From: Nonlabens sp. Ci31
GTDB lineage: Bacteria > Bacteroidota > Bacteroidia > Flavobacteriales > Flavobacteriaceae
Assembly (NCBI RefSeq): GCF_012974865.1
Contig: NZ_CP043633.1
Span: forward strand, 2,725,501 to 2,789,500
Direction: 5' to 3'
DNA length: 64,000 nucleotides
Below the pieces are notes generated by a model. The model was not told the DNA's origin. It saw nothing but the letters and a program-made list of their open reading frames with translations, and ran no database searches. Shown piece after piece: positions 8,070-61,540 of the stretch (position 1 is its first letter; the number at the start of each line of letters is the position of its first letter). Made by a program: the position numbers and the translations under genes.

Positions 8070-8582
8070 TTAAAAAAGTATTTTTTGTTTTTTTTCTAAT
8101 TTTTGAAACTCATTTTGTTTTTCTTCAAATACACCGAAGTGTTTGATAAGTGCGCTTTCGCGAAAGCGGAATATTTCTTCCAACTTTTTTCTTACAAATG
8201 GAGCACCTAATTTACCTAGCGCACCAAATGGTAATCTATAATGAATCAAATCCTCCATTAATGTGCCTCCATTTAGCTCACTGATAAAGTGTTTATGATG
8301 CCAAGTAGCATAAGGACCATACATTTGTTCATCTACAAAGAATTTCTTCTCTTCCACTTGAGTAATGTGAGTTACCCAATTCGTTTTATAAAAAGGAAGT
8401 GGTGTTACCGAATATTCTATAAGCTGGCCTGGATACATACCTCTTTCTGTACCGTATTGAACCACCATATTTAATTCTGGTGGCGTTAGAAGTTTTAGAT
8501 TGTTGGCATCTGTCAAAAAATTCCAAGCTTCTTCTAAGGAGATAGGAAGCTTTTGTTGTGAGGAAAATGAATATAATTTCAA
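8070..8582 (-). CDS. SRPBCC-family (START-like) protein
   Basis: This 170-residue cytoplasmic protein has an SRPBCC lipid- or ligand-binding fold: N-terminal QQKLPISLEEAWNFLTDANN, then alternating beta strands (IEYSVTPLPFYKTNWVTHIT, KKFFVDEQMYGPYATWHHKH) and a C-terminal helix region ending EIFRFRESALIKHFG. Members of this type often accompany photolyase/cryptochrome genes. It is the first gene of the SRPBCC-SDR-photolyase operon. The iterated palindrome at 8153-8168 lies inside its coding sequence and encodes FRFRES. Ligand unknown. Confidence 0.8.
   Translation of the reverse strand: MKLYSFSSQQKLPISLEEAWNFLTDANNLKLLTPPELNMVVQYGTERGMYPGQLIEYSVTPLPFYKTNWVTHITQVEEKKFFVDEQMYGPYATWHHKHFISELNGGTLMEDLIHYRLPFGALGKLGAPFVRKKLEEIFRFRESALIKHFGVFEEKQNEFQKLEKKQKILF
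8153..8168. repeat. Iterated palindrome GCTTTCGCGAAAGC, inside SRPBCC gene
   Basis: A 16-bp perfect palindrome with core GCTTTCGCGAAAGC. In the SRPBCC reading frame it encodes FRES. Confidence 0.9.
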
Positions 8583-8949
8583 GCCTTTTTGTTTAGGTTA
8601 TAAAAGTAACCCTTAAACAAAACATAAAGAATAAAGACTTGTTAAATTCTTTATGAACTTGAACTTGAAATCGAATTTGAAGTCTGTAGTAAGATAAGGT
8701 ATTTCTCCATTTAAATGCAATGTACTGAACTCAGTCGAACAAAGTTAAAAATAGGTGGTACAACAAAAATAGCAAAACCTATTGAGCAACAAAAAGGATT
8801 TTACGGTTGAAAAGTAAAAAATGAATATTTTTACTAAAAACAATCCATATTCACAAGTTATTCTTTTCAACAATTCTGTAAACTCAGAAAATCGCTAATG
8901 CTCCAATTGGTATATTTCTTAAGTTCATCATCGAGTTGGAGTTCAAAAA
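8583..8949. other. Intergenic stretch without recognised features
   Basis: About 370 bp of A/T-rich sequence upstream of the SRPBCC operon and downstream of the outer-membrane barrel gene. No reading frame, strong hairpin or RNA gene was seen. The operon promoter presumably lies near 8590-8680, but no clear TAnnTTTG element stands out. Confidence 0.4.
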
Positions 8950-9702
8950 TTATTCATCCACACGATTTTCTCCATTGCTGTATTCTTTTCCTATTGCGAT
9001 TTTCACCCCTACGCTGAAAATCAGGTTAGAAGCATTAATTTTTTTGAAAATATTTTGTTGTATAGGTGCTGTGGAATTGTTGTCTCTAAAAGAATAAGCA
9101 ATAGGTTTCCCTAAAGTAGTATTGTATTGAGGGGAGAAAAATAGTTGAACCGATCTACGGAAGTAGTAATTAAATCGCAGTCCACCTTCTAGATAAGCGC
9201 TTGATGCCGAATCATTTGCTGGGTCATTTGAGAATACTTGTGTGTTACCAATTCCTATTTCAGAAACCCTATTCTCTGGATTGTTTAAAAAAGCAACCCC
9301 TGTTTTTGCAAAGACATCAAATTGAAACCTTCCTTTTGTGTAGGAGTAGGTAGGTCCTATAGCGATAGAAGTACTGGTCCAATTATGAGACGTCACATTG
9401 GTACGATCGTCATTTTGAAAGTCAAGATAACCAAATTCGTTGTATTGATGTCTTACGGAAATACCTAGTCCCAAATGCTTATTGGTGTAATAGGAAAATT
9501 CTGCACCTATTTGAAGTCCGGATCGAGCAACATCGCCATAATTTGCAATAGGTTGAGTTATACCTAGGTCTACGATCAAATTATTTCTAGGGATCTCCCT
9601 TAAATGTATGACATCTTGAGTACCCTTAAGTTGTAAAGAATCGGTTTGTGCAAAGCCAAACGCGGCAACAAATAAAACGATGAGTAAGGAAATATTTTTC
9701 AT
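8950..9702 (-). CDS. Outer membrane beta-barrel protein
   Basis: This 250-residue protein has a signal peptide (MKNISLLIVLFVAAFGFAQ). After a short linker come alternating amphipathic beta strands with aromatic girdles (NLIVDLGITQPIANYGDVA, IGAEFSYYTNKHLGLGISVR, FQFDVFAKTGVAFL, LEGGLRFNYYFRRSVQLFFS), ending NLIFSVGVKIAIG plus a short hydrophilic tail. This pattern fits a porin-like outer membrane beta-barrel of 8-10 strands (OmpW/OMP_b-brl type). There is no known substrate. It is apparently transcribed alone. Confidence 0.75.
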   Translation of the reverse strand: MKNISLLIVLFVAAFGFAQTDSLQLKGTQDVIHLREIPRNNLIVDLGITQPIANYGDVARSGLQIGAEFSYYTNKHLGLGISVRHQYNEFGYLDFQNDDRTNVTSHNWTSTSIAIGPTYSYTKGRFQFDVFAKTGVAFLNNPENRVSEIGIGNTQVFSNDPANDSASSAYLEGGLRFNYYFRRSVQLFFSPQYNTTLGKPIAYSFRDNNSTAPIQQNIFKKINASNLIFSVGVKIAIGKEYSNGENRVDE

Positions 9703-9858
9703 ATCATAAATATAAGGGTATCTTTTTTATTAAGATTCCTTTAGTGCGGGATTAAGGTATTATTAGTAAGTTTTTTCGGGTAGCGTGGTTATCTTGCACA
9801 CAGCAGATTAAAGAAAGATTTCAGGTGCGATAAGGAATAAGAAGGAAAGTTAGAATAG

Positions 9859-10008
9859 GCTCAAGTAAAAATCAAAGAAGAAGTTGAAAAACTATTTGAT
9901 GTTATATACACAAAAAGTGAAGAAGAAGCAGAACAAGCTAAAGGGAAAATTAAAGAGGAAATAGTTGAGGCTACTAGAAAAATAAAAAATACCTTTGACA
10001 TTAAATAA
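9859..10008 (+). pseudogene. Headless fragment of a helical Lys/Glu-rich protein
   Basis: The plus strand has 49 sense codons ending in TAA at 10006-10008. They encode AQVKIKEEVEKLFDVIYTKS, then EEEAEQAKGKIKEEIVEATR and KIKNTFDIK. The heptad-like Glu/Lys pattern resembles YtxH/LEA-like stress proteins. The frame is closed immediately upstream by TAG (9856-9858) and TAA (9838-9840), and there is no start codon. It looks like the C-terminal remnant of a decayed gene directly upstream of the pterin dehydratase gene. A non-ATG start or chance A/G-rich sequence cannot be excluded. Confidence 0.45.
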
Positions 10009-10015
10009 AATAACG

Positions 10016-10303
10016 ATGGAAAAATTAACAGAAGCACAAATAGAAAAGCATTTAGAAAATGTGGATGGATGGGATTATTATGATGATGCGATCCACACGA
10101 CATTTGAGTTTGACAACTTTATGGATTGCTTTTCTGTAATGACCCGTATCGCTATGGAGGCAGAAAAAATGGAGCATCATCCAGATTGGCATAATACCTA
10201 TGCAACTCTAGAGATTACTCTTTCTTCTCATGACGTAAACGGTCTAACTGAAAAAGATTTCAAACTAGCAGCCGCTATAGAACATATCGTAGGAGACGAG
10301 TAA
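10016..10303 (+). CDS. 4a-hydroxytetrahydrobiopterin dehydratase (pterin-4a-carbinolamine dehydratase)
   Basis: A protein of about 95 residues that dehydrates 4a-hydroxytetrahydrobiopterin, recycling the pterin cofactor used by aromatic amino acid hydroxylases. The family motif EKMEHHPDWHNTYATLEITL is intact, followed by LTEKDFKLAAAIEHI. I chose the ATG at 10016 (MEKLTEAQIEKHL) over the TTG at 9995, which only adds a short tail. It is monocistronic on the plus strand and ends at a strong bidirectional terminator. Confidence 0.9.
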   Translation: MEKLTEAQIEKHLENVDGWDYYDDAIHTTFEFDNFMDCFSVMTRIAMEAEKMEHHPDWHNTYATLEITLSSHDVNGLTEKDFKLAAAIEHIVGDE

Positions 10304-10320
10304 ATCTCTTTTAAATAAGC

Positions 10321-10360
10321 AAAAAGCCCTATAATTTACATAAAATTATAGGGCTTTTTT
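10321..10360. terminator. Bidirectional terminator between pterin dehydratase and SUI1 gene
   Basis: AAAAAGCCCTATAATT pairs with AATTATAGGGCTTTTT around a short loop and is followed by T-runs on both strands. It can end both converging transcripts. Confidence 0.85.
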
Positions 10361-10378
10361 TGTTTTATAAATGCTGAA

Positions 10379-10702: not shown

Positions 10703-10723
10703 CGAGTATTTTTTTTATTTTTG

Positions 10724-13897: not shown

Positions 13898-15898
13898 TTA
13901 AGCGTTTTTCACTTTTTCTTGCATCATTTTAATCTCATCTCGTAATCTTGCGGCTTCCATAAAGTCCAATTCTTTGGCCGCTTTTTCCATCATTTTACGA
14001 GTATTACGGATCTTTTTTTCTAATTCCGCTTTCGACAGGTATTCTGCTGCTTCCTCAGCAGCCTTTAATGTGAGCACTTCTTCAATAGCGTAAGTTGCTG
14101 CATTTTTTCTATATAAGGCTGTTTCTAACTTTTTCTTTATCGCTGTAGGCTTTAAACCATTAGCTTCGTTGTAGGCAATTTGTTTGGAACGACGGTAATC
14201 AGTTTGATCGATGGTTTTTTGCATACTGGCTGTAACTTTATCAGCATATAGAATAGCAAGTCCGTTAATGTTACGTGCTGCACGTCCTATAGTTTGAGTA
14301 AGAGAACGTTGATTACGTAAAAAACCTTCCTTATCGGCGTCTAAAATAGCTACTAAAGAGACCTCTGGTAAATCCAGCCCTTCTCTTAATAAATTCACAC
14401 CTATCAACACATCAAATACTCCACGACGCAAGTCTGACAAGATTTCTACACGTTCTAAAGTATCTACATCGCTATGAATATAGCGACATCGCACATTGAT
14501 ACGAGAAAGGTATTTGGTCAGCTCTTCTGCCATACGTTTGGTAAGAGTAGTGATTAATACCCGTTCATCACGTTCTTCTCTCAATCGTATTTCTTCCACT
14601 AGATCATCTATTTGATTTTGACTAGGTCGTACTTCAATAACAGGATCTAATAGTCCCGTAGGTCTTATGATTTGTTCTACAACGACTCCCTCGCTTTTAG
14701 CCAACTCATAATCTGCAGGAGTAGCACTTACGTAAAGAACTTGATTTTGCATAGCTTCAAACTCCTCAAACTTCAATGGACGGTTGTCCATAGCAGCTGG
14801 AAGCCGAAAACCATAATCGACTAAATTTTCTTTTCTAGACCTATCGCCGCCGTACATGGCACCTACTTGTGGTACGCTCACATGACTTTCATCAATAATC
14901 ATGAGGTAATCATCGGGAAAAAAGTCCAGTAAGCAGAAAGGTCTTGTTCCTGGTTGGCGTCCATCTAGATAACGACTGTAATTTTCAATCCCAGAACAGT
15001 ATCCCAGTTCCCTAATCATCTCTAAGTCAAATTCGGTTCTTTCTTCCAGTCGTTTAGCTTCCAGTGGTTTTCCTATCTCCTTGAAGTAATCGGTTTGTTT
15101 TACCAAGTCTTCTTGGATCTCATGGATAGCACCTTGTAAAATGTCTGGAGAAGTCACAAACATATTTGCTGGATAGATAGTAACTTGTTCAAATCGTTCT
15201 AATACGGTTCCATTCACTGGATCAAAACGTTCAATTTCCTCAATCTCATCGCCAAAAAAATGAATTCGAAAAGCGGTATCTGCATAACTCGGGTAGACAT
15301 CTAGGGTATCTCCTTTTATTCTAAAATTACCTCTATTGAACTCTGCAGTGGTTCTGGAATATAAAGATTGAACTAATTTATGAAGTAATGCTGTTCTAGC
15401 AATGACTTCATCTTTTTTGATTCGCACAACGTTTTTCTGGAACTCCACAGGATTTCCAATACCATAAAGGCAAGAAACCGAAGCGACCACTATAATATCT
15501 CTTCTCCCAGAAAGTAGGGAAGAAGTGGTACTCAATCGCATCTTTTCTATTTCTTCATTAATAGAAAGGTCTTTTTCAATATAAGTTCCTGAGGATGGTA
15601 TAAAGGCTTCTGGCTGATAATAATCATAATAAGAAACAAAATACTCTACCGCATTATCGGGGAAAAAGTCTTTAAATTCAGAGTATAATTGAGCTGCTAA
15701 AGTTTTGTTGTGACAGAGAACCAGTGTTGGTTTTTGCACACCTTGTATCACATTTGCAGCCGTAAAGGTTTTACCACTTCCAGTAACACCCAGAAGCGTC
15801 TGATATTTGTCATTAGCCTCGATGCCACTAATAAGCTTTTTGATCGCTTGTGGTTGATCTCCAGTAGGAGAAAATTCTGATACAATATTAAAATCCAT
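13898..15898 (-). CDS. uvrB: Excinuclease ABC subunit B
   Basis: This 666-residue, full-length UvrB is the DNA helicase-like damage-verification subunit of UvrABC nucleotide excision repair. It has Walker A TGSGKTFTAANVI near residue 40, the beta-hairpin region YFVSYYDYYQPEAFIPSSGT, the DEAD-like motif LMIIDESHVSVPQ, helicase motifs VLITTLTKRMAEELTKYL and LIGVNLLREGLDLPEV, QTIGRAARN, and a C-terminal UVR domain (ELDFMEAARLRDEIKMMQEK) that contacts UvrC. It is apparently monocistronic. An iterated palindrome lies just upstream, and a degenerate half-copy (CCGCTTTCG near 14025) sits within the gene. Confidence 0.97.
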   Translation of the reverse strand: MDFNIVSEFSPTGDQPQAIKKLISGIEANDKYQTLLGVTGSGKTFTAANVIQGVQKPTLVLCHNKTLAAQLYSEFKDFFPDNAVEYFVSYYDYYQPEAFIPSSGTYIEKDLSINEEIEKMRLSTTSSLLSGRRDIIVVASVSCLYGIGNPVEFQKNVVRIKKDEVIARTALLHKLVQSLYSRTTAEFNRGNFRIKGDTLDVYPSYADTAFRIHFFGDEIEEIERFDPVNGTVLERFEQVTIYPANMFVTSPDILQGAIHEIQEDLVKQTDYFKEIGKPLEAKRLEERTEFDLEMIRELGYCSGIENYSRYLDGRQPGTRPFCLLDFFPDDYLMIIDESHVSVPQVGAMYGGDRSRKENLVDYGFRLPAAMDNRPLKFEEFEAMQNQVLYVSATPADYELAKSEGVVVEQIIRPTGLLDPVIEVRPSQNQIDDLVEEIRLREERDERVLITTLTKRMAEELTKYLSRINVRCRYIHSDVDTLERVEILSDLRRGVFDVLIGVNLLREGLDLPEVSLVAILDADKEGFLRNQRSLTQTIGRAARNINGLAILYADKVTASMQKTIDQTDYRRSKQIAYNEANGLKPTAIKKKLETALYRKNAATYAIEEVLTLKAAEEAAEYLSKAELEKKIRNTRKMMEKAAKELDFMEAARLRDEIKMMQEKVKNA

Positions 15899-15927: not shown

Positions 15928-15943
15928 CGCTTTCGCGAAAGCG
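15928..15943. repeat. Iterated palindrome GCTTTCGCGAAAGC upstream of uvrB
   Basis: A 16-bp perfect palindrome, 30 bp upstream of the uvrB start and 26 bp before the T9SS gene's stop, in intergenic DNA. Confidence 0.9.
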
Positions 15944-15969: not shown

Positions 15970-18942
15970 TTATCTTTTGAGAGAAAAATGCCCCTTAAAA
16001 CTGCGGCCATCAATTAATTCCACAAGGTACCAATAATCGGTACTAGGCATAGGCTTACCGTTATACATTCCATTCCACCCAGGTCCAACTGGGCTTATTT
16101 GTTTTAAAAGTTTTCCAAAACGATTAAAAATGTAGATCTGTGCGTCTGGTTCGGTTTCAATCGCAGTTACTTGCCAGTAGTCGTGAAACCCGTCTTCATT
16201 AGGGGTGAAATAAGGAGGCGCGGCGATTATGGTTGCTGGAGCTGTTACCAGGTCACAACCATTAAAATCTCGTACATAAACGGTGTAATATCCAGGAAGT
16301 AAATTGGTAAAAACATTACTTTCCTGAAAAATAAAGTTGTCGATGCTGTATTCAAAGGGACCATCTCCGATAACGGACACCTCAATGCGGTTGGATCTCA
16401 AGGTAAATTGTTCAATTACTACCGTGACAATTTGAGTGGTTTGGAAATTAGTCACTGTTGTGGAGCTGCTATCTTCACAGCCGTTTTGATCTGTTGCAAT
16501 TACAGTATAGGTTCCCTCATCAGTAATGCTGATACTCGATGTGGTAGCTCCTGTATCCCACAAATAAGTGGCAAAACCTGGAGTTGCCTCAATAATGCCC
16601 TCTTCGGTAATACATTTTGAGAAGTCAGCTGTGGTGTTGACTATAGGTTTAGGAAATACTTCTAAACGCAAAGGCTGTACATCATAACAAATAGCTATAT
16701 CGTTGTTCTCTAAGCGTACCCATAAAACTTCTTGTATCATGGTATTTGAATAATTAGTATTCAAAGGATTATCATCTAATTCTGCATCTTGTAGTGAACT
16801 ATGAAATGTAGTTGTAAGATTTCCAGATTGTGTATTTTCAATAGAGGCTATTAAAGAATTCAAATCAAAAACGGCTACTAAATCTCTAGATTCATCATCA
16901 CAAATAGCCATATCATTTATTATAGGAATCACAGGCTGTGCTACTACATGAAGATCAAAAGAAACCACTTCATAGCAATTTGTGTTGGTCACATTCTCAT
17001 AGCGTATGAAAATCTCTTCATTAGCCATAGTATTGTCGTATGGGGAACTAATTGGGTTCTGTCTCAAGTTTGCTTCATTTTGAGATGCATAAAAGGAATA
17101 CTCAACTAGTATCGGGTCCTGAGTTCCCAAACCTTGAACAGCTGCAATGTCTAAATCAAATGATTCTATATTATCGTTACTAAAATCGTCACACAGGATC
17201 AAATCGTCTACCATCGATGCTACAGGAATGCTGTTAATAGTCACATCAAAAGAAGTAGTTATATAGCAACCGTTTGACATCCGGTTATCGATTCTTATAA
17301 AATAGGTACCGCTAGCAACTGGATCGTTATCAGCTATGGAATTAAAATCGTTCTCTGCATCTTGAAGACTGGAATGAATAGTAACTTCAAAATTGTTGGT
17401 GTTTTGAATACCTAAGGCACTCATTCTCGTAGCAGTAAAGTCTAAGGGTGCGATACCATCATTGGAACTGTCATCGCATAAAAATAGGTCACTAACGGTA
17501 TTTATAAAAGGAGTATCGACTATTTGGATAATGCGACTGGAATTAAAAACATCTGTAGGAGTCGTAATCACCAGACTTACGGTATAGGTGCCAGCAATGG
17601 TGTATACATGAGTAGGATTTATCAGCGTAGAACTGTTATCTATACCACTTGCTATATCTCCAAAATCCCAAAGAACAGAATTATTAGGACAAGTGGCTAT
17701 TTCATCTGCAATGAGTTGGGTAGAGGCTGTGCTGCAACCTTCTATTACAGAAAATGACGGGTTAAAAAAGGCGTTGTAAAAAGGAGGCAAACCTTCCTTA
17801 CTTGTTGTCCCTGGAGTTAATGGCAAACCGTTGTATTGAAAGTTACATAATGCACCTATACTATTAGGGTTGTTAATTACTGCGAGCCATTCTTGTTCAT
17901 CACGGGCATAGTATATCTTTTTATCGGGGGCAATTTGTAGCGCACCACGAGTCACATCATCATTAGGATTGTTTGCATCACTTTGATAAATAAGAACTGG
18001 ATTGTTTTCAAAATTAGGGGCTGTAGTATCGTATTGTAGCAACCGTCTTTCGGCTGCTATAAGCCCATTTCCTAATGTATTGAGATCCACATACACCAGT
18101 CTCGAGTCTAAGGAAAACTCCGTTCCATAAGCTTGATAGCCGGCAGGAAAATTCATCCTTACAGGGTTATTCACCACACCAGTACGGTTATCAAAATCAA
18201 ATAACCAGGCGCCTACACCAGATTCATCTGGGATGCTCGTGTCCACATAAAATTGTGTCATCATAGCTACTTTTGTGCCATCTGGAGATACTTTTAAGTA
18301 CCCCCGTTTATCTGTAGTGCGAGTAGCCTGACTGAGAGAATTTACAGTAGCCGACAAATCCATCCCATTAGGCGTTAGTTTAAAAGCATAAAACTGATTA
18401 AAACTTAAACTACCTGAAATACTTTCTGCATAGGTAACGATCCATGCGTCTTGACCGTTTGCGGCAACTGCTCCAAATAACTTTTCTGTACTGTTAGCCA
18501 GTAAACTGATGTTTTTTTGGGAAACGATCACATCGCCAGTCCCAGCATTTAAATTCATGTCTACAACCGAATAATAAAGGCCTGTGGTAGTACCTATCGA
18601 AATAGAAAAAACATAATAGAGATCGGGGTTATTTGGTAAAGGAATCACAATAGCAGACTGTGTACTGGAAGGATTTCCAAATAAGCCATTACCATTGGGC
18701 ATGACCAGGTGATTGCGATCCCATACGCTAATTCCATCCGTATAAAAAAGTAATCCGCCACAGGCATCTGAGATAGCAGAGCAGCCTTCTATAGTGTTTA
18801 GTTGTCCTATGTTATTAGTTACAGGAACGCCCGTATTAAAATCAATCCCTGCATTAGAACCAAAAAACCACCAATTAGCTTGATTTTGTGACACTACAGG
18901 AAGAGCTAGCAGCAGTAGGAAGATGGAAACAAATTTTCTCAC
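15970..18942 (-). CDS. T9SS type B sorting-domain surface protein with PKD domain
   Basis: This 990-residue protein has a signal peptide (MRKFVSIFLLLLALPVVS). An N-terminal region of about 380 residues (WWFFGSNAGIDFNTG... and repeated strand motifs) resembles a beta-propeller and is shared with the 1767-residue protein at 31.9-37.2 kb. A PKD-like domain (VLWDFGDIASG...HVYTIAGTYTVSLVI) follows, then three repeats of about 95 residues marked by LCDDSSND, LCDDFSND and ICDDESRD. An Ig-like segment comes next, and the C-terminus is a gliding-motility/T9SS type B domain (PYFTPNEDGFHDYWQVT...DYWYLVELIDG...KGHFSLKR). It is exported by the Sec pathway and type IX system and likely mediates adhesion or binds polymers. 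Confidence 0.88.
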   Translation of the reverse strand: MRKFVSIFLLLLALPVVSQNQANWWFFGSNAGIDFNTGVPVTNNIGQLNTIEGCSAISDACGGLLFYTDGISVWDRNHLVMPNGNGLFGNPSSTQSAIVIPLPNNPDLYYVFSISIGTTTGLYYSVVDMNLNAGTGDVIVSQKNISLLANSTEKLFGAVAANGQDAWIVTYAESISGSLSFNQFYAFKLTPNGMDLSATVNSLSQATRTTDKRGYLKVSPDGTKVAMMTQFYVDTSIPDESGVGAWLFDFDNRTGVVNNPVRMNFPAGYQAYGTEFSLDSRLVYVDLNTLGNGLIAAERRLLQYDTTAPNFENNPVLIYQSDANNPNDDVTRGALQIAPDKKIYYARDEQEWLAVINNPNSIGALCNFQYNGLPLTPGTTSKEGLPPFYNAFFNPSFSVIEGCSTASTQLIADEIATCPNNSVLWDFGDIASGIDNSSTLINPTHVYTIAGTYTVSLVITTPTDVFNSSRIIQIVDTPFINTVSDLFLCDDSSNDGIAPLDFTATRMSALGIQNTNNFEVTIHSSLQDAENDFNSIADNDPVASGTYFIRIDNRMSNGCYITTSFDVTINSIPVASMVDDLILCDDFSNDNIESFDLDIAAVQGLGTQDPILVEYSFYASQNEANLRQNPISSPYDNTMANEEIFIRYENVTNTNCYEVVSFDLHVVAQPVIPIINDMAICDDESRDLVAVFDLNSLIASIENTQSGNLTTTFHSSLQDAELDDNPLNTNYSNTMIQEVLWVRLENNDIAICYDVQPLRLEVFPKPIVNTTADFSKCITEEGIIEATPGFATYLWDTGATTSSISITDEGTYTVIATDQNGCEDSSSTTVTNFQTTQIVTVVIEQFTLRSNRIEVSVIGDGPFEYSIDNFIFQESNVFTNLLPGYYTVYVRDFNGCDLVTAPATIIAAPPYFTPNEDGFHDYWQVTAIETEPDAQIYIFNRFGKLLKQISPVGPGWNGMYNGKPMPSTDYWYLVELIDGRSFKGHFSLKR

Positions 18943-21757: not shown

Positions 21758-23215
21758 ATGTCCAAAGAAGTAAGAGAACAAGAACCGCAATTATTATGGA
21801 ATCATTTTGCAGATTTAAATGCTGTTCCACGACCTTCTAAAAAAGAAGAGCGTGTTCGTGCATTTATGGTAGCATTTGGTAAATCACTTGACCTCGAAGT
21901 GATAGAGGATGCCATAGGTAATGTGATTATTAGAAAACCTGCTACTTCAGGAATGGAGGACCGCGAGAGTATCATCATGCAATCTCACCTAGACATGGTG
22001 CATCAAAAGAATAATGATACCGACTTCGATTTTCTAACCCAAGGAATTGACATGTTTGTTAAAGGGGACATTATCAAAGCTAGAGGTACTACTTTAGGAG
22101 CAGATAACGGTATAGGAGTCGCCGCAATCATGGCGGTACTTTCCTCAAAAGATATAGCACATCCAGCTATAGAAGCCTTGTTTACTATAGACGAAGAAAC
22201 GGGAATGACCGGAGCAAAGGAACTAGATAAAACTATTCTTACTTCAAAAATTCTATTGAACTTAGATACAGAAGAAGATGACGAGATAGACATAGGTTGT
22301 GCCGGTGGCGTAGATGTTACAGCAACTAAAAGTTATGCATTAGATACTGTTTCTAATGAGTATGTCTCTAAAAAAATTACGGTAAAAGGTCTTAACGGTG
22401 GTCATAGTGGTATGGACATTATTAAAGGATTGGGTAATGCAAATAAAATGATCACGCGTCTTGTAGATTCCATGCAAAAGAAAGGCGCTGTTCATTTTCA
22501 GTCCTTGAATGGCGGTAGTTTAAGAAATGCCATACCTCGTGAAGCTGCTGCTGTTGTTAGCTTTCGCGAAAGCGATAACGATTCCATTATTAAGACATTT
22601 AATAATTGTAAAGAGGCTATTCTAGACGAATATAAATCTCTAGAAGAAAACCTTAGTATCACCATAGAGGCTGCAGATAAGGGTAAAGTCCTTACTGAAA
22701 GCGATAGCCGTGATTTAGTATATTGCTTATTAGGAATTTATAATGGAGTGTACCGTATGAGTCCAGATATAGATGGTCTTGTAGAAACTTCTAACAACTT
22801 AGCTCGAGTAACTTTAGAAAACGGGGAATTGCAGATTGCTTGTTTGACAAGATCTTCTGTAAAAAGTTCTAAGACCGATCTTTCTTCCAGTATTGTTGCT
22901 GTAATGAAGCTTGCAAAAATGGAAACCAAACTCTCTGGTAATTATCCAGGATGGCAACCTAATGCGAGCAGTGCCATGTTAGATATTACCAAAGCAAAAT
23001 ATACAGAACTGTTCGATCATCAACCTAGAGTAGTAGCCTGTCACGCAGGACTAGAATGTGGTCTTTTAGGAGAGCGTTATCCAGGGCTGGACATGATTTC
23101 CTTTGGGCCCAATATAAGAAGAGCACACAGTCCAGATGAGTATGTAGAAATCACATCAGTGCAGAAGTTTTGGAAGCTTCTTTTAGAAGTTTTAAAAGAG
23201 ATTCCTAAAACTTAG
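21758..23215 (+). CDS. pepD: Aminoacyl-histidine dipeptidase (Xaa-His dipeptidase)
   Basis: This 485-residue M20-family zinc metallopeptidase hydrolyses Xaa-His and other dipeptides in the cytoplasm. Metal and catalytic motifs are visible: MQSHLDMVHQKN (His, Asp), GADNGIGVA (Asp), FTIDEETGMTGA (Glu-Glu), LNLDTEEDDEI, and CHAGLECGLLGERYPGLDMI near the C-terminus. Length matches PepD. The coding sequence includes one iterated palindrome (22560-22574, encoding SFRES). It is monocistronic, with its own promoter-like element and a terminator downstream. Confidence 0.93.
   Translation: MSKEVREQEPQLLWNHFADLNAVPRPSKKEERVRAFMVAFGKSLDLEVIEDAIGNVIIRKPATSGMEDRESIIMQSHLDMVHQKNNDTDFDFLTQGIDMFVKGDIIKARGTTLGADNGIGVAAIMAVLSSKDIAHPAIEALFTIDEETGMTGAKELDKTILTSKILLNLDTEEDDEIDIGCAGGVDVTATKSYALDTVSNEYVSKKITVKGLNGGHSGMDIIKGLGNANKMITRLVDSMQKKGAVHFQSLNGGSLRNAIPREAAAVVSFRESDNDSIIKTFNNCKEAILDEYKSLEENLSITIEAADKGKVLTESDSRDLVYCLLGIYNGVYRMSPDIDGLVETSNNLARVTLENGELQIACLTRSSVKSSKTDLSSSIVAVMKLAKMETKLSGNYPGWQPNASSAMLDITKAKYTELFDHQPRVVACHAGLECGLLGERYPGLDMISFGPNIRRAHSPDEYVEITSVQKFWKLLLEVLKEIPKT
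22560..22574. repeat. Iterated palindrome GCTTTCGCGAAAGC inside pepD
   Basis: A perfect 14-bp palindrome plus one flanking base, inside the coding sequence, read as FRES (same frame use as in the SRPBCC gene). Confidence 0.9.
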
Positions 23216-23385: not shown

Positions 23386-24144
23386 CTACTCAAACCTAAA
23401 CTCTATCTTCCCATTCTCAAAAACGACATTTTTGGAAGGAAAAATGCTTTGTAATTGGTTAGAAGCTATAAAATCGACGGTAGATTGATGGGTAATGTTA
23501 CCTTTATGTATGCTCACGACTTCATCGCTTAAGGACATGGCAAGTTGGATTTCGTGCGTGGCATAAATAATTGTTTTTCCCTTTTCATGACAGTAATCTC
23601 TCAATAGCAGTAGCAAATCGGCTTTGTGATTGATGTCGAGGTGGCTGGTAGGCTCATCCATAAGTATGTATTCCGTGTCTTGAACGATAGCTCTGGCAAT
23701 TAAAACTCGTTGCAACTGGCCATCACTCAAGGTCCCTGCTCTTCGGTTTTCCAATCCTTTAAGATCAAAACTCTCTAAGACTTCATTGATGATTTCACGG
23801 TCTGCATCACTAAGCTTTCCTATATAGTTGGTGTAGGGCGCGCGACTTAATTCTAATAATTCTCTAACACTTAAGAAGAAGCTAAAAGCCCTTTCGGTCA
23901 GTACTATCGAGATAAATCGGGAACGTTCTAGTGCGTTATAATCCCTCCAGTTTTGATTTTCTAAGAGCACCTTTCCGTTGATGAGGTGTTGCCCACTAGC
24001 TATGGCTCTTAATAAAGTAGATTTCCCTGATCCATTGGCTCCTATAATGGATATGAGTTTCGCTTTCGCGAAAGCGAGATCGCCAGCATACTCAGCCACA
24101 ACACAATGGCCATATCCTACCTGTATGTTTTCTAGTTGAATCAT
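23386..24144 (-). CDS. ABC transporter ATP-binding protein, FecE/BtuD type (probable vitamin B12 import)
   Basis: This 252-residue ATPase powers import of iron-siderophore or cobalamin through the adjacent permease. Motifs: Walker A SIIGANGSGKSTLLRAI, signature LSDGQLQRVLIARA, Walker B YILMDEPTSHLDI, and switch histidine YATHEIQLAM. It shares one base with the permease stop, so the two are tightly coupled. Together with the BtuF-like protein and the riboswitch-controlled TonB receptor nearby, cobalamin is the most likely substrate. An iterated palindrome (24061-24076) lies in the coding region just before Walker A, encoding AFAKA. Confidence 0.87.
   Translation of the reverse strand: MIQLENIQVGYGHCVVAEYAGDLAFAKAKLISIIGANGSGKSTLLRAIASGQHLINGKVLLENQNWRDYNALERSRFISIVLTERAFSFFLSVRELLELSRAPYTNYIGKLSDADREIINEVLESFDLKGLENRRAGTLSDGQLQRVLIARAIVQDTEYILMDEPTSHLDINHKADLLLLLRDYCHEKGKTIIYATHEIQLAMSLSDEVVSIHKGNITHQSTVDFIASNQLQSIFPSKNVVFENGKIEFRFE
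24061..24076. repeat. Iterated palindrome GCTTTCGCGAAAGC inside the BtuD-like gene
   Basis: A perfect 16-bp palindrome coding for part of LAFAKAK, in a different reading frame from the pepD and SRPBCC copies. Confidence 0.9.
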
Positions 24145-28581: not shown

Positions 28582-28712
28582 GCAATAATGATGGGTTTGA
28601 ATGGCTTTCTTTCTGATTTTGATAATTTTCTTCTGTTTTTAAGTTTCTAGGGATGTTTTAATAGTACTTTCGCAGCTTTAAATATGGTTTTTTTAGTTGG
28701 ATGGAAGTTAGG

Positions 28713-28726
28713 CTTTCGCGAAAGCA
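28713..28726. repeat. Iterated palindrome GCTTTCGCGAAAGC upstream of the cobalamin riboswitch
   Basis: A perfect 14-bp palindrome immediately 5' of the riboswitch core, in intergenic DNA. Confidence 0.9.
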
Positions 28727-31927: not shown

Positions 31928-34900
31928 TTATCGTTTTAAAGCAAAGTGGCCTTTAAAACTACGCCCGTCAGCTAATTCTACTAAGTACCAGTAATCACTG
32001 GATGGCATAGGAGCTCCATTATAAGTTCCGTCCCATCCTCGACCCGTAGCGCTTACTTGTTTTAATAATTTACCGTGACGGTCAAAAATATAGATGCTCG
32101 CGTCAGGAATGGTTTCTACCGCAATGACTTGCCAGGTATCGTGATACCCATCTTGATTAGGAGTAAAATAAGGAGGTCCGCCTATGATGACAGCACTCAT
32201 AGATACGGTTCCACAACCGTTTTTATCTTTTACATAGATGGTATAGAATCCTGGATACAGATTATTAAATCGCTGGCTGTCTTGATACACGAAGTCATCT
32301 AATGAGAATTCGTAATCACCACTTCCAGTGACAATCGCAGTTAGTGTGTTGGTATTCACTTCAAACTGTCCTACATCGATTCGTTCAATTACCGCTACAT
32401 CAGACTCCACAACCGTTACTGTTGCCGTACTGTCACAACCATCGCTGTTGGTTACCGTTACCGTATAATCGCCACCAGAAGCAACATCAATAGTTTGTGT
32501 TGTTTCCCCAGTAGACCACAGGTAGCTAGAGAATCCTGGGCCAGCGTCAATTGTTTCGGCAACACCTGCACAAATAGTATAAGGTCCTTGGTCAGCAATA
32601 ACAGGTCGTGCAAATACTTCTATTCTAAAAGTAGATAGGTCATAACAATCTTGATGAGCAGCATTCTCTATTCTTGCATAAATAGTTTGTGTTCTAGAAG
32701 TATTGGTATAAGGAAAACTCAAAGCATTGACATCATTGTCAGCATCTGTTGCATTGCTGTGATACGTCACATTGAAGTCCGTTGTACTTTGACCGTTATA
32801 GATCGCAGCATCTTGTGTACTGAAGTCAAATTCTTCAAAACCATCGTTACTGATGTCATCACAACCTACCACGTCAGTTCCAGTTCCTGCCGTAGGCTGT
32901 TCACTTACGGTTAAGGTAAAACTGGTCGTATCAAAACAAACCGGATTTGAGATTGCTTCTATTCTCACAAAAATAGTTTCTGGAGTAATGCTGTCACTTG
33001 CATAAGAAGTAGCTAACGCAGCAGTATTCATGTTGGCATCATTTTGTGATGGGTGGAAGGTGATATTGAAATCACTGGAGTTTTGTCCAGTTAATACTTG
33101 GCTATTTGCCATGCTTAAATCAAATACCTCAGAGCCATCATTTCCAGGATCATCACAAGTAATCATATCCAATACTGGATTTGCCGTAGGAGTAGGACTG
33201 ATCACAAATCTAAAAGTAGTTGTCGTGTAACAGCTATCATTATCAGCATTATCTATTCTAGCAAATAGATTAGGTGTGGTGCTGGTCACTGCATAAGGAC
33301 TGGACAATGGACTTGCATTAGCATTAGCATCTGCTTGAGAGGCGTGATAGGTCACATTAAAACTAGGGTTGGTCTGTCCATCGAGGATCGCACTATCAAA
33401 CTGAGATAAGTCCACATCTTCTGTTCCATCGTTAGACGGATCATCACACACAATAATATCTGCTGGAGTTCCTGCAAGTGGTAATGGGTCTACAAATAGA
33501 TCAATTACAGCAGTGTCGTAACAGCTGTTATTGGCATTGGTCTGTATTCTTACAAAAAGCGTCGCAGAACCACTATTGTAAATAGTAGGTAACGGAGTTG
33601 CTCCACCAGTACTTCCCAAATCAGCATCTGCTTGTGAAGTAAAGTATGCTATGGTAAAGTTAGCGGCGTTTTGAGTTCCTAAAACTTGACTGTCTTGAGT
33701 ACTAAGGTCAAAATCTTCTAGCCCGTCGTTACTAGCATCATCACAAATACGGTATTCGGCAACGTTGTTGGCCACTGCTTGCTCATTAAGGATGATCGTG
33801 ATAGGAGTGGTATTGTAACAGGTTTGATTATCTGTATTGTCTATTCTTGCAACTATGGTCGTTGTACCTGTCGTAATATTGAAAGGACTCGTAAGTCCCG
33901 GAGCGTCAGCATCAGCATCTGCTTGATTCAAGTGGTAAGACACTGCAAAAGTAGAAGTAGTTTGTCCATTTAATACAGCAGCGTCAAATTGTGAAAGCGC
34001 AATATCTTCGGTCCCGTCATTACTAGCATCATCACAAATAATCAAATCTGCTGGAGTTGTTGCTAGGGGTAAATCATCGACTACAAGATTAAAACTTGTG
34101 GTATTATAACAAGTGGCATTGGCTGCAGTTTCGATACGCACAAATACAGTTTCGCCACTACTGTTATAAGAAGTTGGCAGCGGACTTGCTCCTCCGGCAC
34201 TTCCCAAATCGGCATCAGCTTGAGAAGTAAAATATTCGATATTGAAGTTTGCTGGGTTTTGAGTGAGCAGGACTTCTGTATCTCTGCTACTCAGATCAAA
34301 GTCTTCTACACCGTCATTACCTGTATCACAAATACGGTATTCACTAACTGGATTAGCTAATGCTTGCTCGTTGAGAATGATATTGATAGCAGTGGTATCA
34401 AAACAAGTTTGATTATCGCTATTGTCTATTCTTGCAACTATGGTCGTTGTACCTGTCGTAATAGTGAAAGGACTCGTAAGTCCCGGAGCGTCAGCATCAG
34501 CATCTGCTTGATTCAAGTGGTAAGACACTACAAAAGTAGGAGTAGTTTGTCCGTTTAAAATAGTGGTATCAAATTGTGAAAGCGCAATATCTTCAGTCCC
34601 ATCATTACTAGCATCATCACAAATAATCAAATCTGCTGGAGCTGTTGCTAGTGGGAGATCATCTACAATGATATCAAATGATGTGGTATCAAAACAGTCG
34701 GTATTGGCATTATTTTCTATACGTGCATACATGATTTGTCCAGCACTACTATAAAGGTTGCTTACAGGAGTCGCCCCACCTACAGATCCTAAATCAGCAT
34801 CTGCTGGAGAGGTGAAGTATTCTATATTGAAATCGGCTGGGTTTTGAGTGAGAAGAATTTCAGGATTTATAGAAACCAGATCAAAGACTTCAGAATTATT

Positions 34901-41359: not shown

Positions 41360-41375
41360 CGCTTTCGCGAAAGCG
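41360..41375. repeat. Iterated palindrome GCTTTCGCGAAAGC between clpB and the acyl-CoA ligase gene
   Basis: A 16-bp perfect palindrome in intergenic DNA, upstream of the ligase and downstream of the clpB terminator. Confidence 0.9.
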
Positions 41376-45610: not shown

Positions 45611-46942
45611 ATGAAACATAATCTTCCTCGAGGCTCAAAAAAATTGCTCCATGCATGGGCATTTTATGATTGGGCAAATTCCGTATATTCTCTAGTAATT
45701 AACAGCGCTATTTTCCCTATTTTTTACGCAGCGATTAGTATCAAAGCATTTGAAGAAGGAAACGTACCGGAGATGCTTAAAGGAATAAATAATGAATCTA
45801 TCATTATTATAACTACCGCGATCGCTTTTTTAATCGTGAGTATTATTTCTCCCATTCTTTCCGGTATTGCTGACTACTCTGGTAAGAAAAAACGCTTTTT
45901 ACAATTCTTCTGTTATTTAGGAGCTATCTGTTGTATAGGTCTTTCTATGTTTAGCTTTGATTATTTATGGATTAGTTTATTGATTTATATGCTCGCATTG
46001 ATTGGATTTTGGGGAAGTCTGGTTTTTTATAATTCTTACCTTCCAGACATTGCTTTTCCGGAGCAGCAAGACGCTATAAGTGCTAAGGGGTTTTCTATGG
46101 GATATTTAGGAAGTGTACTACTCCTTGTTATTTGTCTGGCATTATTAGAAGGTGGTTTTTACCCAGAAGAGGGTTTGTTGCCAAATAATGAGTATTTCAA
46201 ACTCTATTCTTTTCAGCTTTCTTTTATACTAGTAGGATTGTGGTGGATGGGTTTTGCCCAATACACTTATAAATACCTTCCTTTAGGAACTAAAAAGGAT
46301 CGAAGTGATGTCAAAAACATTTTTACCAATGGTTTTGAAGAACTCAAAAAAATAGGGAAGAGTCTATCTACTAATCTACAGATGAAACGTTATTTAGGAG
46401 CCTTTTTTATCTATAGTATGGCGGTTCAAACAGTTATGTTAGTAGCAACTTATTTTGGTACAGAAGAAGTGCAATGGGAAGAAGACGGCGCTACCATGGG
46501 TTTGATTATCAGTATCCTACTGATCCAGCTGGTAGCTATTTTTGGAGCTTGGTTGGCCAGTTTGCTTTCGCGAAAGCTAGGTAATATCAAAACTCTAATC
46601 GTCATTAATATACTGTGGGCAGTTATATGTGTTTATGGATATTTTGTGGTAACTCCTATGCAATTCTACATAACAGCAGGTTTTGTAGGGCTAGTAATGG
46701 GGTCTATACAAGCCTTATCACGCAGTACCTATTCTAAGATGATTCCAGATGGAAATCCAGATACGGCATCTTATTTCAGCTTCTATGACGTAGCAGAAAA
46801 AATAGGGATCGTGATCGGGATGCTCCTATTTGCCATAGTAGGTGAGATCAGTGGCTCCATGCGAGAGCCTATTTTGTTTTTAATAGTCTTTTTTATAGTG
46901 GGGATAATTCTCCTCTCTAGAGTTCCTTCTTTGAAGAAATAA
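45611..46942 (+). CDS. MFS transporter, UMF1/Atg22-like
   Basis: This 443-residue polytopic membrane protein has about 12 hydrophobic helices. The N-terminal AWAFYDWANSVYSLVINSAI is typical of the UMF1/Atg22-like subgroup (vacuole effluxer family), and IISPILSGIADYSGKKKRFL carries the MFS A-like loop. The GLVMGSIQALSRSTYSKMIP region is also shared by this subgroup. The substrate is unknown; amino acid efflux is proposed for yeast relatives. The coding region contains an iterated palindrome (46564-46577, encoding LSRK). Confidence 0.87.
   Translation: MKHNLPRGSKKLLHAWAFYDWANSVYSLVINSAIFPIFYAAISIKAFEEGNVPEMLKGINNESIIIITTAIAFLIVSIISPILSGIADYSGKKKRFLQFFCYLGAICCIGLSMFSFDYLWISLLIYMLALIGFWGSLVFYNSYLPDIAFPEQQDAISAKGFSMGYLGSVLLLVICLALLEGGFYPEEGLLPNNEYFKLYSFQLSFILVGLWWMGFAQYTYKYLPLGTKKDRSDVKNIFTNGFEELKKIGKSLSTNLQMKRYLGAFFIYSMAVQTVMLVATYFGTEEVQWEEDGATMGLIISILLIQLVAIFGAWLASLLSRKLGNIKTLIVINILWAVICVYGYFVVTPMQFYITAGFVGLVMGSIQALSRSTYSKMIPDGNPDTASYFSFYDVAEKIGIVIGMLLFAIVGEISGSMREPILFLIVFFIVGIILLSRVPSLKK
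46564..46577. repeat. Iterated palindrome GCTTTCGCGAAAGC inside the MFS gene
   Basis: A perfect 14-bp palindrome in the coding region, read as LSRKL, which is the third possible reading frame of the motif. Confidence 0.9.
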
Positions 46943-56092: not shown

Positions 56093-56094
56093 AA

Positions 56095-58784: not shown

Positions 58785-59699
58785 CTAAGGCAAATCCTTA
58801 CCCATCGAGGCCACATAAATATGAAACCATTGCTCTAGTGACATCTTGATATTTAAGGAATCTACAGCAGTTTTGATGCGCTCGATTTTACCAGTTCCTA
58901 AAACGGGAATAATACCCGATGGATGCATCAATAGCCACTGATAAATCACTTTATCTAATTGTGATTCACCTGTTTCTTGCGCTACTTTTTTAACCGCTTC
59001 TAGCACTCTGGTTCCTTTATCTGTTTTGGGTTGTAACAACTCACCTCCAGCAAGAGGCGACCAGGCCATAGGGCGTATTTTTTTAGAGATCAGGTAATCT
59101 AGGTTTTGGTTTTCAAAATGCTCTAAAGAATAAGCAGAGATTTCGATTTGGTTGGTGACCAATGGCTTTTCCACATAGGCTTGCAACGATTCCAATTGCA
59201 ATGGAAGAAAATTAGAAACCCCAAAATGAAGCACTTTACCGCTGGATTGGAGTTGGTCAAAAGCGGAAGCTACTTCCTCTGGATTAAAAAACGGGGAAGG
59301 GCGATGTAATAATAGTATATCTAAGCGATCGGTTTGCAGGTTTTTAAGCGATTGTTCTACCTGAGAAATGATGTAGGAGGCGCTGTAATCATAATATTTT
59401 ATTTGGCGCTCTGGAAATTTGTCAGTGGTGAGTTTGATTCCACATTTAGTAACCAGCTGCATTTGGTCGCGCAATGCGCTTTCATTTTTTATCACTTTTC
59501 CAAAAGCCGCTTCACATTCATGGTTCCCATAAATATCGGCATGATCAAAGGTGGTCACGCCACTTTCTATAGACTGCTTGATAAAAGACAACAATTCTTG
59601 ATCGGTTTTATTCCAGTCCAGCAAGCGCCACATTCCTAAAACCAGTCTTGATATTTCTAAATTTGCGGCAAGCTTTGTATTCATATCCATAGAGGACAA
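58785..59699 (-). CDS. Aldo/keto reductase
   Basis: This 304-residue NADPH-dependent oxidoreductase has a TIM-barrel fold. Catalytic residues are in place: Asp and Tyr in TTFDHADIYGNHECEAAFGK, Lys in LVTKCG, and His in LLLHRPSPFF. The cofactor site is MAWSPLAGGEL and IPVLGTGKIERIKTAV. It is close to the YdhF-type subgroup of aldo/keto reductases. The start at 59699 (MSSMDMNTKL) could also be an ATG at 59690 or 59684. It follows the TlpA-like gene by 5 bp, so the two are an operon. Confidence 0.9.
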   Translation of the reverse strand: MSSMDMNTKLAANLEISRLVLGMWRLLDWNKTDQELLSFIKQSIESGVTTFDHADIYGNHECEAAFGKVIKNESALRDQMQLVTKCGIKLTTDKFPERQIKYYDYSASYIISQVEQSLKNLQTDRLDILLLHRPSPFFNPEEVASAFDQLQSSGKVLHFGVSNFLPLQLESLQAYVEKPLVTNQIEISAYSLEHFENQNLDYLISKKIRPMAWSPLAGGELLQPKTDKGTRVLEAVKKVAQETGESQLDKVIYQWLLMHPSGIIPVLGTGKIERIKTAVDSLNIKMSLEQWFHIYVASMGKDLP

Positions 59700-59704
59700 A
59701 GTTA

Positions 59705-60193
59705 CTATTGATTTTTAATTAAATTATCAATAGTTTCTTCCGTTAATTCAAAGCCTTTTTGTTGAGGCCATCCTTCCCAAACCACAATGCCGTCTGGATT
59801 AATGATCACACAATGTGGTATGCCTTGCACTTCATAAATTTGGTTCAATCGCCTTTGAGTGTCTATGGCGCTGTAGTATTCCATTTCAGGACTTTTCATC
59901 CTTTTTACCGTTCCTTTCGCTTCAGCGCTAATACCAATAACAACTAGGGAATCTTTATACTTATTGTGAAAAATATTCAATTCAGGAATTGCCTTTTTAC
60001 AAGGACCACACCAGGTTGCCCAGAAATCGATTAAAACAAATTTTCCTTTTGTCTCTGGTTTTTCAGTTAACCACTCTTCAACGACCAATTCAGGTGCTTT
60101 TTGATTGATAAATGATTTAGCCCATATTTTTTTCTCTTGGGAATAAGAACTAGCGGCAGAAAGTATAATTAATAGGATTATAATTTTTTTCAT
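59705..60193 (-). CDS. TlpA-family periplasmic thioredoxin
   Basis: A protein of about 162 residues from the ATG at 60193 (MKKIIILLIILSAASSYSQ), chosen because the longer open frame starts with an implausible Cys/Trp-rich prefix. A Sec signal peptide is followed by an AhpC-TSA/TlpA thioredoxin domain with FWATWCGPCKKAIPELNIFH (WCGPC active site) and the cis-Pro region VQGIPHCVIINPDG. It is exported to the periplasm, where it reduces disulfides, for example in cytochrome c maturation. First gene of an operon with the aldo/keto reductase. Confidence 0.9.
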   Translation of the reverse strand: MKKIIILLIILSAASSYSQEKKIWAKSFINQKAPELVVEEWLTEKPETKGKFVLIDFWATWCGPCKKAIPELNIFHNKYKDSLVVIGISAEAKGTVKRMKSPEMEYYSAIDTQRRLNQIYEVQGIPHCVIINPDGIVVWEGWPQQKGFELTEETIDNLIKNQ

Positions 60194-60564
60194 AGTTGGA
60201 AGGTTATTGGTAACCGTATTCTTTTTAAAGATAAATGACATTATGGAAGCTTTTAATTTACAGCAGCTATTCCATAGGAGCAAACTCATCCACCTAAAAT
60301 AGAAAATTTTAAAAGATTCAAGTGAATTAGCGGAAAGAATTTCCAATTGGTTGGTGCAATATGTAGCTTACTAACTTTTCCACCAGCCTTATTTTACACT
60401 TGCTTTATGGGTGCTATCTTAGTAAGTGCCGTTGGGCACAGGTATGTTTTAGATCTTCAGTTTTTTAGAAGTTGTTTTCTAGTTCCTATAAAATAGATCG
60501 AGTGTTACCTATTAAATAGTTGGGATAAAATTTAAATTCCAACATATCAGTTTATATTTTTCGC
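60194..60564. other. Intergenic stretch without recognised features
   Basis: About 370 bp upstream of the TlpA-like gene and downstream of the SDR gene. No reading frame, RNA gene or clear hairpin was seen. The promoter of the TlpA-aldo/keto reductase operon must lie here, but no consensus element is clear. Confidence 0.4.
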
Positions 60565-61284
60565 TTAAGGATTTGTAGACCATAAAGAAGCGCTTTTAAG
60601 CATCGCTCTCTTAGGCAATTTCAATCCGGCAACAATCAACTCGGCAAAATCTTCTGCTTGTAATACACTGTCCTCAGAATCTTTATCTGCTATCCCTAAA
60701 TCTACTGCCATATCTGTTGCGATGGTGCTTGGTGTTAGTGTGCAAACTCTGATATTGTTTTTACGCACTTCTTTCATCAAGGATTCTGACATCCCGATCA
60801 CTGCAAATTTGGAAGCCGAATAAGCCGAAGTACTTGCAATACCGCTCAAGCCTGCGGTAGAAGAAACGTTGATGATGTCACCTTTGTTTTGATCGATCAA
60901 ATAGGGAAGGACTTCTTTAGTGACATAATACATTCCCATAAGGTTGGTTTGTATGATCTGACTCCACTGATTTACATCCATATCGTTGAGCGTGCCAAAA
61001 GCCGCAATACCCGCATTGTTGACAAGAATATCCACCGCACCTAAGTGCGCGACTAAAGTTTTGATGTGGCTTTGTACCTCTTTATAATTACTTATGTCAA
61101 ATGCTGCATAAGTGGCTTGGACACCTAGCTGTTCTAATTCGCTAACCGTTGCTTTTAACGCTTTTTCATCTCTACCAGTAATGGCGACGTTTATTCCTTC
61201 TTTTGCAAATGCTATTGCTGTAGCTTTCCCCAAGCCACGGTTACCGCCTGTTATGATCGCGTTTTTACCTTTTAAATCTTGCAT
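60565..61284 (-). CDS. Short-chain dehydrogenase (FabG/3-ketoacyl-ACP reductase type)
   Basis: This 239-residue SDR enzyme is called from the ATG at 61284 (MQDLKGKNAIITGGNRGLGK), because this is the normal SDR N-terminus. The cofactor motif is TGGNRGLG, the NNAG motif is DILVNNAGIAAFG, the catalytic Ser is in IINVSSTAG, and the YxxxK is intact in SAYSASKFAVIGMSESL. It is probably NADPH-dependent and cytoplasmic. The substrate is unknown. The C-terminus (ASLWSTNP) resembles stand-alone FabG-like oxidoreductases. It appears monocistronic. Confidence 0.9.
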   Translation of the reverse strand: MQDLKGKNAIITGGNRGLGKATAIAFAKEGINVAITGRDEKALKATVSELEQLGVQATYAAFDISNYKEVQSHIKTLVAHLGAVDILVNNAGIAAFGTLNDMDVNQWSQIIQTNLMGMYYVTKEVLPYLIDQNKGDIINVSSTAGLSGIASTSAYSASKFAVIGMSESLMKEVRKNNIRVCTLTPSTIATDMAVDLGIADKDSEDSVLQAEDFAELIVAGLKLPKRAMLKSASLWSTNP

Positions 61285-61518
61285 GTATGTTGTTTTAAAA
61301 TTGAAATGAATACCATAAAAGCTATGGATTATAGGAAGGGGTAACACTAACAAAAGCTTCTTATATAAAATAACTTAAAGCAGTAAAATTAGAGTTTTTA
61401 AATGGTTCTTCTAGACGATTAGGTCTTAATCCTTTGTGAATAAAGTACTGTTTTTGTAAATAAAGAAACAGGTGGCACTTGGTTTTTATAACTAGAGTAC
61501 AAGCCTTAGTTGTTGAGT

Positions 61519-61540
61519 TCCGCTTTCGCGAAAGCGGAAC
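61519..61540. repeat. Iterated palindrome, extended 22-bp copy
   Basis: The core GCTTTCGCGAAAGC is extended to a perfect 22-bp palindrome with CCG and CGG flanks plus TT/AA, in intergenic DNA between the SDR gene and the broken surface protein. Confidence 0.9.

Follow-up and report, generated by a model that had tools for sequence, protein, structure and literature searches.

Several classes of repeated chromosomal site offer comparisons for the element reported here. The uptake sequences of Haemophilus and Neisseria combine a sharp core with weaker flanks, lie both in genes and between them at about one per kb, and are evenly spaced in Haemophilus. Chi sites are 5–8 nt long, non-palindromic and read as single strands, and the parS, Noc-type and SlmA/matS sites are palindromes for dimeric chromosome-organising proteins. 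HIP1 (GCGATCGC) of cyanobacteria is a clade-restricted palindrome of 8–10 bp, over-represented genome-wide and with flank extensions that keep the palindrome; the available part of the source gives the HIP sequences a cognate DNA methyltransferase in each genome where they occur, a GC content of at least 75% (with one exception at 50%) and a density of 1000–2000 per million nucleotides (PMC4390886). Here we describe a perfect 14-bp palindrome, GCTTTCGCGAAAGC, in the flavobacterium Nonlabens sp. Ci31, seen in a stretch of 64,000 nucleotides (positions 2,725,501–2,789,500 of the 3,740,082-bp single contig; hereafter the window) and recurring throughout the genome. It is over-represented genome-wide as HIP1 is, but is longer, with about 18 bp of dyad flank on each side of its 14-bp core, sparser, at 130–240 per Mb in the genomes rich in it, and has a GC content of 57% (8 of 14 bases). 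Unlike the Haemophilus and Neisseria uptake sequences it is palindromic and several-fold sparser, and unlike parS and the other organising sites it occurs in hundreds of evenly spread copies, with no origin or terminus bias visible in the part of the Ci31 genome sampled. We tentatively interpret it as a chromosome-wide array of sites that a dimeric DNA-binding protein would recognise and that selection for coverage would maintain.

Counted over the whole window there are nine exact copies and no one-mismatch copy, and the motif is missing from all 100 dinucleotide shuffles of the window. The octamer TTCGCGAA is always part of the full 14-mer, both in the window (nine of nine) and in a larger, 224-kb sample containing the window (34 of 34). 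An earlier note made from the sequence of the window counted the nine copies correctly, although the starts it gave were off by 0–3 bases; it was also right that most copies reach 16 bp (six of nine are palindromic over at least 16 bp), but the longest, given there as 22 bp, is a perfect 24-bp palindrome. By the list of open reading frames (ORFs), four copies are inside ORFs and five between them, so that the mixed coding and intergenic location it described holds. The copies, all exact matches and without strand, are listed below with their fate in relatives; throughout, G numbers denote genomes, G000 being that of the window, and L numbers denote sequence stretches.

8154–8167: copy 1, inside ORF 8070–8582 (−); same place in G242
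15929–15942: copy 2, between uvrB (13898–15898, −) and the gene of a protein sorted by the type IX secretion system (T9SS; 15970–18942, −); same place in G242
22560–22573: copy 3, inside dipeptidase ORF 21758–23215 (+); not at the aligned place in G242
24062–24075: copy 4, inside ABC ATPase ORF 23386–24144 (−); same place in G242
28712–28725: copy 5, between divergent ORFs; same place in G242
41361–41374: copy 6, between an AMP-binding enzyme gene and clpB; corresponding G242 interval lacks the motif
46564–46577: copy 7, inside Atg22-like transporter ORF 45611–46942 (+); same place in G242, G010, L085 and L086
52614–52627: copy 8, 81 bp upstream of the lon start; conserved at −81/−82 in five of five Nonlabens, with diverged flanks
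61522–61535: copy 9, within the perfect palindrome 61517–61540, between divergent ORFs; G242 alignable on one side only

The 3.74-Mb genome of Ci31 contains 487 exact copies, mostly single and unclustered, against about 0.005 expected from base composition and none for the reversed-letter control. Neither of the outcomes that the earlier note had named as telling against its highly iterated palindrome, a count close to the compositional expectation or limitation of the repeat to the window, was found. Nine genomes are rich in the motif, with 408–857 copies: five of Nonlabens, two of Dokdonia and two of two further genera. Five of them come from a sample of 299 genomes of the family, namely G000, G010 (578 copies) and G242 (664), which belong to one genus, and G190 (408) and G206 (857) from two others, and the remaining 294 have 0–19 copies. 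Four more are among 25 genomes traced from named loci (25 of 80), an isolate of N. dokdonensis (G299, 701), N. antarcticus (G300, 611) and two of uncultured Dokdonia (G305, a metagenome-assembled record of 5.5 Mb, with 740, and G307 with 570), the other 21 having 0–7. In a sample of 395 genomes of the phylum G000 is the sole rich one, and the other 394 have 0–6. In the samples searched the motif is confined to a few marine flavobacterial genera. The earlier note knew of no named system with this sequence in this group, and among the open-licence papers listed, as judged by titles and abstract openings, we likewise found no description of the motif; matches to its inner decamer, TTTCGCGAAA, looked unrelated by title, and CTTTCGCGAAAG had no match.

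The inner decamer occurs 526–1107 times in the five rich genomes of the family sample and at most 34 times in the other 294, with 0–28 for its reversed control. We note that 93–97% of these decamers lie within the full 14-mer in G000, G010 and G242, compared with 73% (408/559) in G190 and 77% (857/1107) in G206, and the surplus in the latter two is possibly a dialect of the motif. The Lon protein of the window has its best matches in N. dokdonensis (92%) and N. antarcticus (88%), and these, along with proteins that bear T9SS sorting domains, assign the genome to Nonlabens. A lon tree of 40 rows splits the rich taxa in two, with Nonlabens on one side and G190, G206 and Dokdonia on the other, the latter group having Leeuwenhoekiella, Salegentibacter and Christiangramia as neighbours. 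Between the rich and poor states the tree requires two changes, one sufficing in 2% of bootstrap trees, and from this single-gene, midpoint-rooted tree either one gain with losses or two gains is possible.

The core is sharply defined. There are 590 copies in G000 with at most one mismatch, of which 103 are left after subtraction of the exact ones; the equivalent one-mismatch numbers are 87 in G010, 74 in G242, 128 in G190, 160 in G206, 65 in G299, 118 in G300, 116 in G305 and 98 in G307. Exact copies exceed one-mismatch copies by 3–11 fold in all nine rich genomes (reversed one-mismatch control, 0–5). Over 824 kb of G000 there are 107, 25, 13, 23 and 161 copies at 0–4 mismatches, and 200 shuffled half-site palindromes gave one match altogether in the same sequence, against 107 for the motif. 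In three poor genomes the proportions are the other way round, with 7 exact copies and 22 with one mismatch in Leeuwenhoekiella marinoflava G315, 9 and 20 in G144, its neighbour on the lon tree, and 6 and 19 in G042, and this pattern looks like decay after maintenance was lost. A similar argument from 18 stretches of motif-poor genomes (38 copies exact, 8 at one mismatch and 5 at two) was dropped, because the ratio resembles that of G000 and the stretches had been picked for having exact copies.

The core is the center of a larger element. When copies are aligned on it and averaged over both arms, C is found at −1 in 84% of cases in G000 and 96% in G242, T at −3 and −4 (77–78% at −4), T at −10 (71% in G000, 83% in G242) and G or T at −12 and −13, and C is scarce out to about −18. 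Copies inside and outside genes both show this pattern, the intergenic ones somewhat more strongly (T at −4 in G000, 71% coding and 88% intergenic). The element is dyad-symmetric, with an exact 14-bp core and weaker sequence-specific flanks of about 18 bp per side. The two arms do not covary (summed complementarity 8.41 observed and 8.59 expected, P 0.87, over 157 sites and 24 positions), and therefore the half-sites are read separately, which fits a dimeric protein on duplex DNA and not a hairpin. With our own simple gene caller, which assigns 78% of G000 (probably too low) and 87% of G242 to coding sequence, copies are enriched between genes: 71 of 107 are inside called genes and 36 outside in G000, and 22 of 50 inside and 28 outside in G242. 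The genic copies of G000 fall in all three reading frames (39, 20 and 12, giving the peptides AFAKA, (R/S)FRES and LSRK). Intergenic copies seldom lie between convergent genes (1 of 30 classified in G000, 3 of 28 in G242), and the lack of covariation, the many genic copies in G000 and the few at convergent gene ends rule out a hairpin or an intrinsic terminator and do not fit a repetitive extragenic palindrome (REP). A long-range switch of strand composition at the sites was also rejected, since the G+T asymmetry fades over a few hundred bp.

The copies are spaced more evenly than if placed at random, as judged by the coefficient of variation (CV) of the gaps and by the number of short gaps, below a quarter of the mean, with 20,000 simulations for each comparison. 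Over 0–763 kb of G000 (99 gaps) the CV is 0.681 against 0.991 for random placement, and there are four short gaps against 21.7 expected, neither of which was matched in any simulation. Similar values were obtained for 2.73–2.99 Mb of G000 (29 gaps; CV 0.720, P 0.036; one short gap against 6.2 expected), for G242 (49 gaps; CV 0.708, P 0.005; none against 10.7), for Dokdonia G307 (49 gaps; CV 0.481; two against 10.7) and for G206 (12 gaps; CV 0.419, P 0.001). The first 12 gaps of G190 gave no significant departure (CV 0.640, P 0.07), and 80 gaps gave a CV of 0.691 (P 0.0001) with six short gaps against 17.6 expected. In 28 sampled 20-kb stretches of G000 the copies are under-dispersed, with a mean of 2.75 and a variance of 1.16. 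Creation of copies site by site would be expected to leave random gaps, and selection for at least one site per stretch to leave even ones. Large gaps could conceivably be recent islands; the two of G000 in which 10 proteins were considered contain respectively a transposase fragment with an ORF6N protein, and RimK-like, channel and ATP-grasp genes. Three ORFs in succession, each of about 1,550 residues (L182–L183, about 2,908,800–2,923,600 of G000), lie within a single palindrome-free gap of 20 kb.

Comparison with G242 shows which positions are kept. Among 30 sites in a 264-kb stretch of G000, 20 have no homologue in the 300 kb of G242 compared, and seven of the other 10 have the motif at the same place, six of them by alignment and the seventh at a similar offset within an interval that did not align; in the remaining three, one is replaced by other sequence, one corresponds to a motif-free interval and one is aligned on one side only. 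Seen from G242, seven of 17 sites are shared, six are absent from G000 and four are undecidable. Flank identity around the compared sites is about 77% with the motif masked. In the copy upstream of lon all 14 motif columns are invariant in the five Nonlabens, compared with 36 of 134 in the upstream flank, 19 of 68 in the sequence from the motif to lon, and 51 of 68 at the start of the lon coding region. Between the shared window sites at 15,929 and 24,062 each genome has one private site, at 22,560 in G000 and at 14,871 of the joined stretch in G242 (copy 22,560 aligns with G242 without gaps in one comparison and with gaps when the motif is masked), and this single case suggests turnover of sites with spacing kept. 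Insertion of a mobile palindromic element across the genome, such as a REP or a miniature inverted-repeat transposable element (MITE), would explain why every rich genome has a short sequence in hundreds of identical copies. We consider it highly improbable, given the copies within genes in all three frames, the identical places in several species despite diverged flanks, the flanks that follow a consensus with no covariation of the arms, and the even spacing.

In the interpretation that we favour, the chromosome-wide array of protein sites, the element would be the recognition site of a sequence-specific, probably homodimeric protein acting on double-stranded DNA, and this protein is predicted to be active only in the motif-rich lineages. 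Selection would keep at least one good site per several kb and not one particular site. We infer this selection for coverage because a second site near an existing one is not maintained, and it would give both even spacing and turnover of positions. The process served may be chromosome-scale DNA structuring, by bridging or domain formation, and not gene regulation; this is the least certain step. Somewhat more tentative than the favoured interpretation as a whole is the proposal that this is a new kind of coverage system, in which a clade-specific dimeric protein would read an approximately 50-bp dyad element recurring every few kb in resident DNA, so that the bacterium, integrating islands and some phages all have spaced copies, and which would differ from HIP/methylation, parS, Chi and the described uptake sequences.

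Several points weigh against a coverage array. First, no binding protein has been identified, and no gene-content search for one was made; nucleoid proteins do not usually require an exact match of 14 bp. Secondly, close pairs are rare yet present, 489 bp apart in G000 and 237 bp in G307. A strong origin-to-terminus gradient was not seen in the 28 sampled stretches of G000, so that a segregation role is unlikely. Thirdly, in the syntenic stretch three of the 10 sites of G000, and 10 of the 17 of G242, were not demonstrated to be shared. Finally, the signs of decay consist of small numbers for which old transfer is an alternative, and other poor genomes show no reversal of exact and one-mismatch copies (16 and 10 in G076, 19 and 9 in G287, 17 and 7 in G051, 6 and 6 in G101, 6 and 3 in G012).

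The main rival is that the element is a DNA uptake sequence, such that competent cells would favour DNA bearing it and transformation and recombination would multiply and preserve it, and this we regard as somewhat unlikely. The even spacing, the sharp core with weaker flanks, the location in genes and between them, and the clade restriction all match uptake sequences, and the motif is absent from P12024S and P12024L, two phages recorded as Nonlabens phages, which have no annotated integrase and for whose host strain the motif count is not known. The density is well below that of Haemophilus and Neisseria, however; we know of no uptake sequence that is palindromic, nor of competence in Nonlabens or Dokdonia, and two or three copies, several of them well flanked, are present in contigs that encode phage portal, capsid, tape-measure or integrase proteins. 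Two reports count in favour of uptake, as far as the available parts of each go: in H. influenzae and N. gonorrhoeae over-representation falls steeply from zero to one mismatch (PMC1939737), and Riemerella is naturally competent, with R. columbina favouring its own DNA, although no uptake sequence has been established there (PMC7965970).

These phage contigs also bear on a further alternative, that the element is a recombination or repair mark, or a passport for self DNA, at which an enzyme processing DNA ends or foreign DNA would be stopped or redirected; one copy per few kb would be needed, and the element would be Chi-like but palindromic, hence effective from both sides. The several-kb scale of the spacing, the avoidance of close pairs and the phage contigs with several well-flanked copies would all suit such a mark. 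It is nonetheless unlikely: Chi sites differ in being short, non-palindromic and read as single strands, the long dyad flanks suggest a dimer on double-stranded DNA, and the two Nonlabens phages have no copy.

Among the viral matches listed, 132 could be scored for flanks, of which 17 keep five or six of the six flank marks and 94 keep at most two, the latter looking like chance matches. Three contigs whose hosts are not known, L251, L268 and L302, have two or three copies each. Among the contigs with well-kept flanks, L302 is clearly a phage (portal, capsid, adaptor and tail genes), with one copy, at 6705, inside a capsid-protease gene, and L251 is clearly another (integrase and tape measure). 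A distant-mode comparison of L302 with annotated phages gave only short matches, to Tenacibaculum and Winogradskyella phage. Within each of the groups L302/L323/L326 and L251/L269/L293 the contigs have copies in common, their flanks being identical or nearly so. The phages of the L302 and L251 groups may infect motif-rich flavobacteria. Avoidance of the motif by phages as a general rule was dropped once the motif-bearing contigs turned up.

The resemblance to HIP1 raised in the earlier note, alongside uptake and chromosome-organisation motifs, stands as far as a highly iterated palindrome is concerned, and extension that preserves the palindrome is a further likeness in the available part of the HIP1 source (PMC4390886). 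A close kinship does not stand, in view of the greater length, the extended flanks, the even spacing and the methyltransferase results; the element is over-represented as HIP sequences are, but its GC content and density lie below theirs. We consider it very doubtful that the element is made and kept by repair linked to DNA methylation, as in a HIP1-like system. Biased repair acting on individual sites would not be expected to space them evenly. No match to PF00145, PF01555 or PF02086, the only three methyltransferase families searched (type I and others were not), was obtained in G242, a genome with 664 copies, and none of the three is common to the eight rich genomes tested, PF00145 being absent from five of eight, PF01555 over the cut-off from five of eight and PF02086 from six of eight. 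A methyltransferase link of the HIP1 type was rejected for these families.

Identity with ParB binding sites is extremely improbable, although the palindrome has TTTC...GAAA arms like those of parS. The canonical parS, GTTTCACGTGAAAC, is separately present in G000 at 1,090,578 and 1,092,471, and no extra ParB common to the nine rich genomes was found among the 20 genomes searched; together with hundreds of copies that do not cluster at the origin, these results rule out parS or a ParB paralogue. The putative DNA-reading stretch of ParB was aligned for 10 of 20 loci, the other 10 having no usable frame. It reads GKNRSTI in rich G307 and G206 and in five poor genomes; G051, also poor, has GKKRSTI, and two Nonlabens have GKSRSAI. 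The likely origin of G000 is near 1.09 Mb, from skew and parS; the two parS-like sites there (L081) are 1.9 kb apart near the sign change of the GC skew, and parB is far off at about 2.906 Mb. G012 and G101 each have a ParB-domain frame of 616 residues, at a distance of 6.5 kb and 13 kb, respectively, from copies of the motif.

In several motif-poor genomes the copies are clustered, and comparison of the stretches suggests that these clusters are islands transferred from a motif-rich donor. The same two copies, separated by exactly 933 bp and matching in their flanks, occur in L046, L047, L048 and L052; other copies are common to L051, L056 and L060, as judged by flanks. By our own reading of the translations, L048 has, along with its motif copies, genes for a multicopper oxidase and a pump of the CusA/CzcA type and a TolC-like gene. 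In the window itself, 61931–62857 encodes a transposase with an ISXO2-like domain and a zinc ribbon (IS1595 family), and 31928–37231 and 15970–18942 encode large proteins, of 1,767 and 990 residues, each with a T9SS type B sorting domain.

The occurrence of hundreds of copies of one palindrome in some genomes has been an open question since HIP1 was described, and the motif is a second such case, in another phylum and without the methyltransferase link that has dominated thinking about HIP1. Two of its properties, the even spacing and the long dyad flanks found inside genes and between them, are pointers to a protein that binds it and to selection for coverage. Nonlabens and Dokdonia are culturable marine bacteria. 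The motif probably also marks DNA exported from the rich genera, such as the putative metal-resistance islands.

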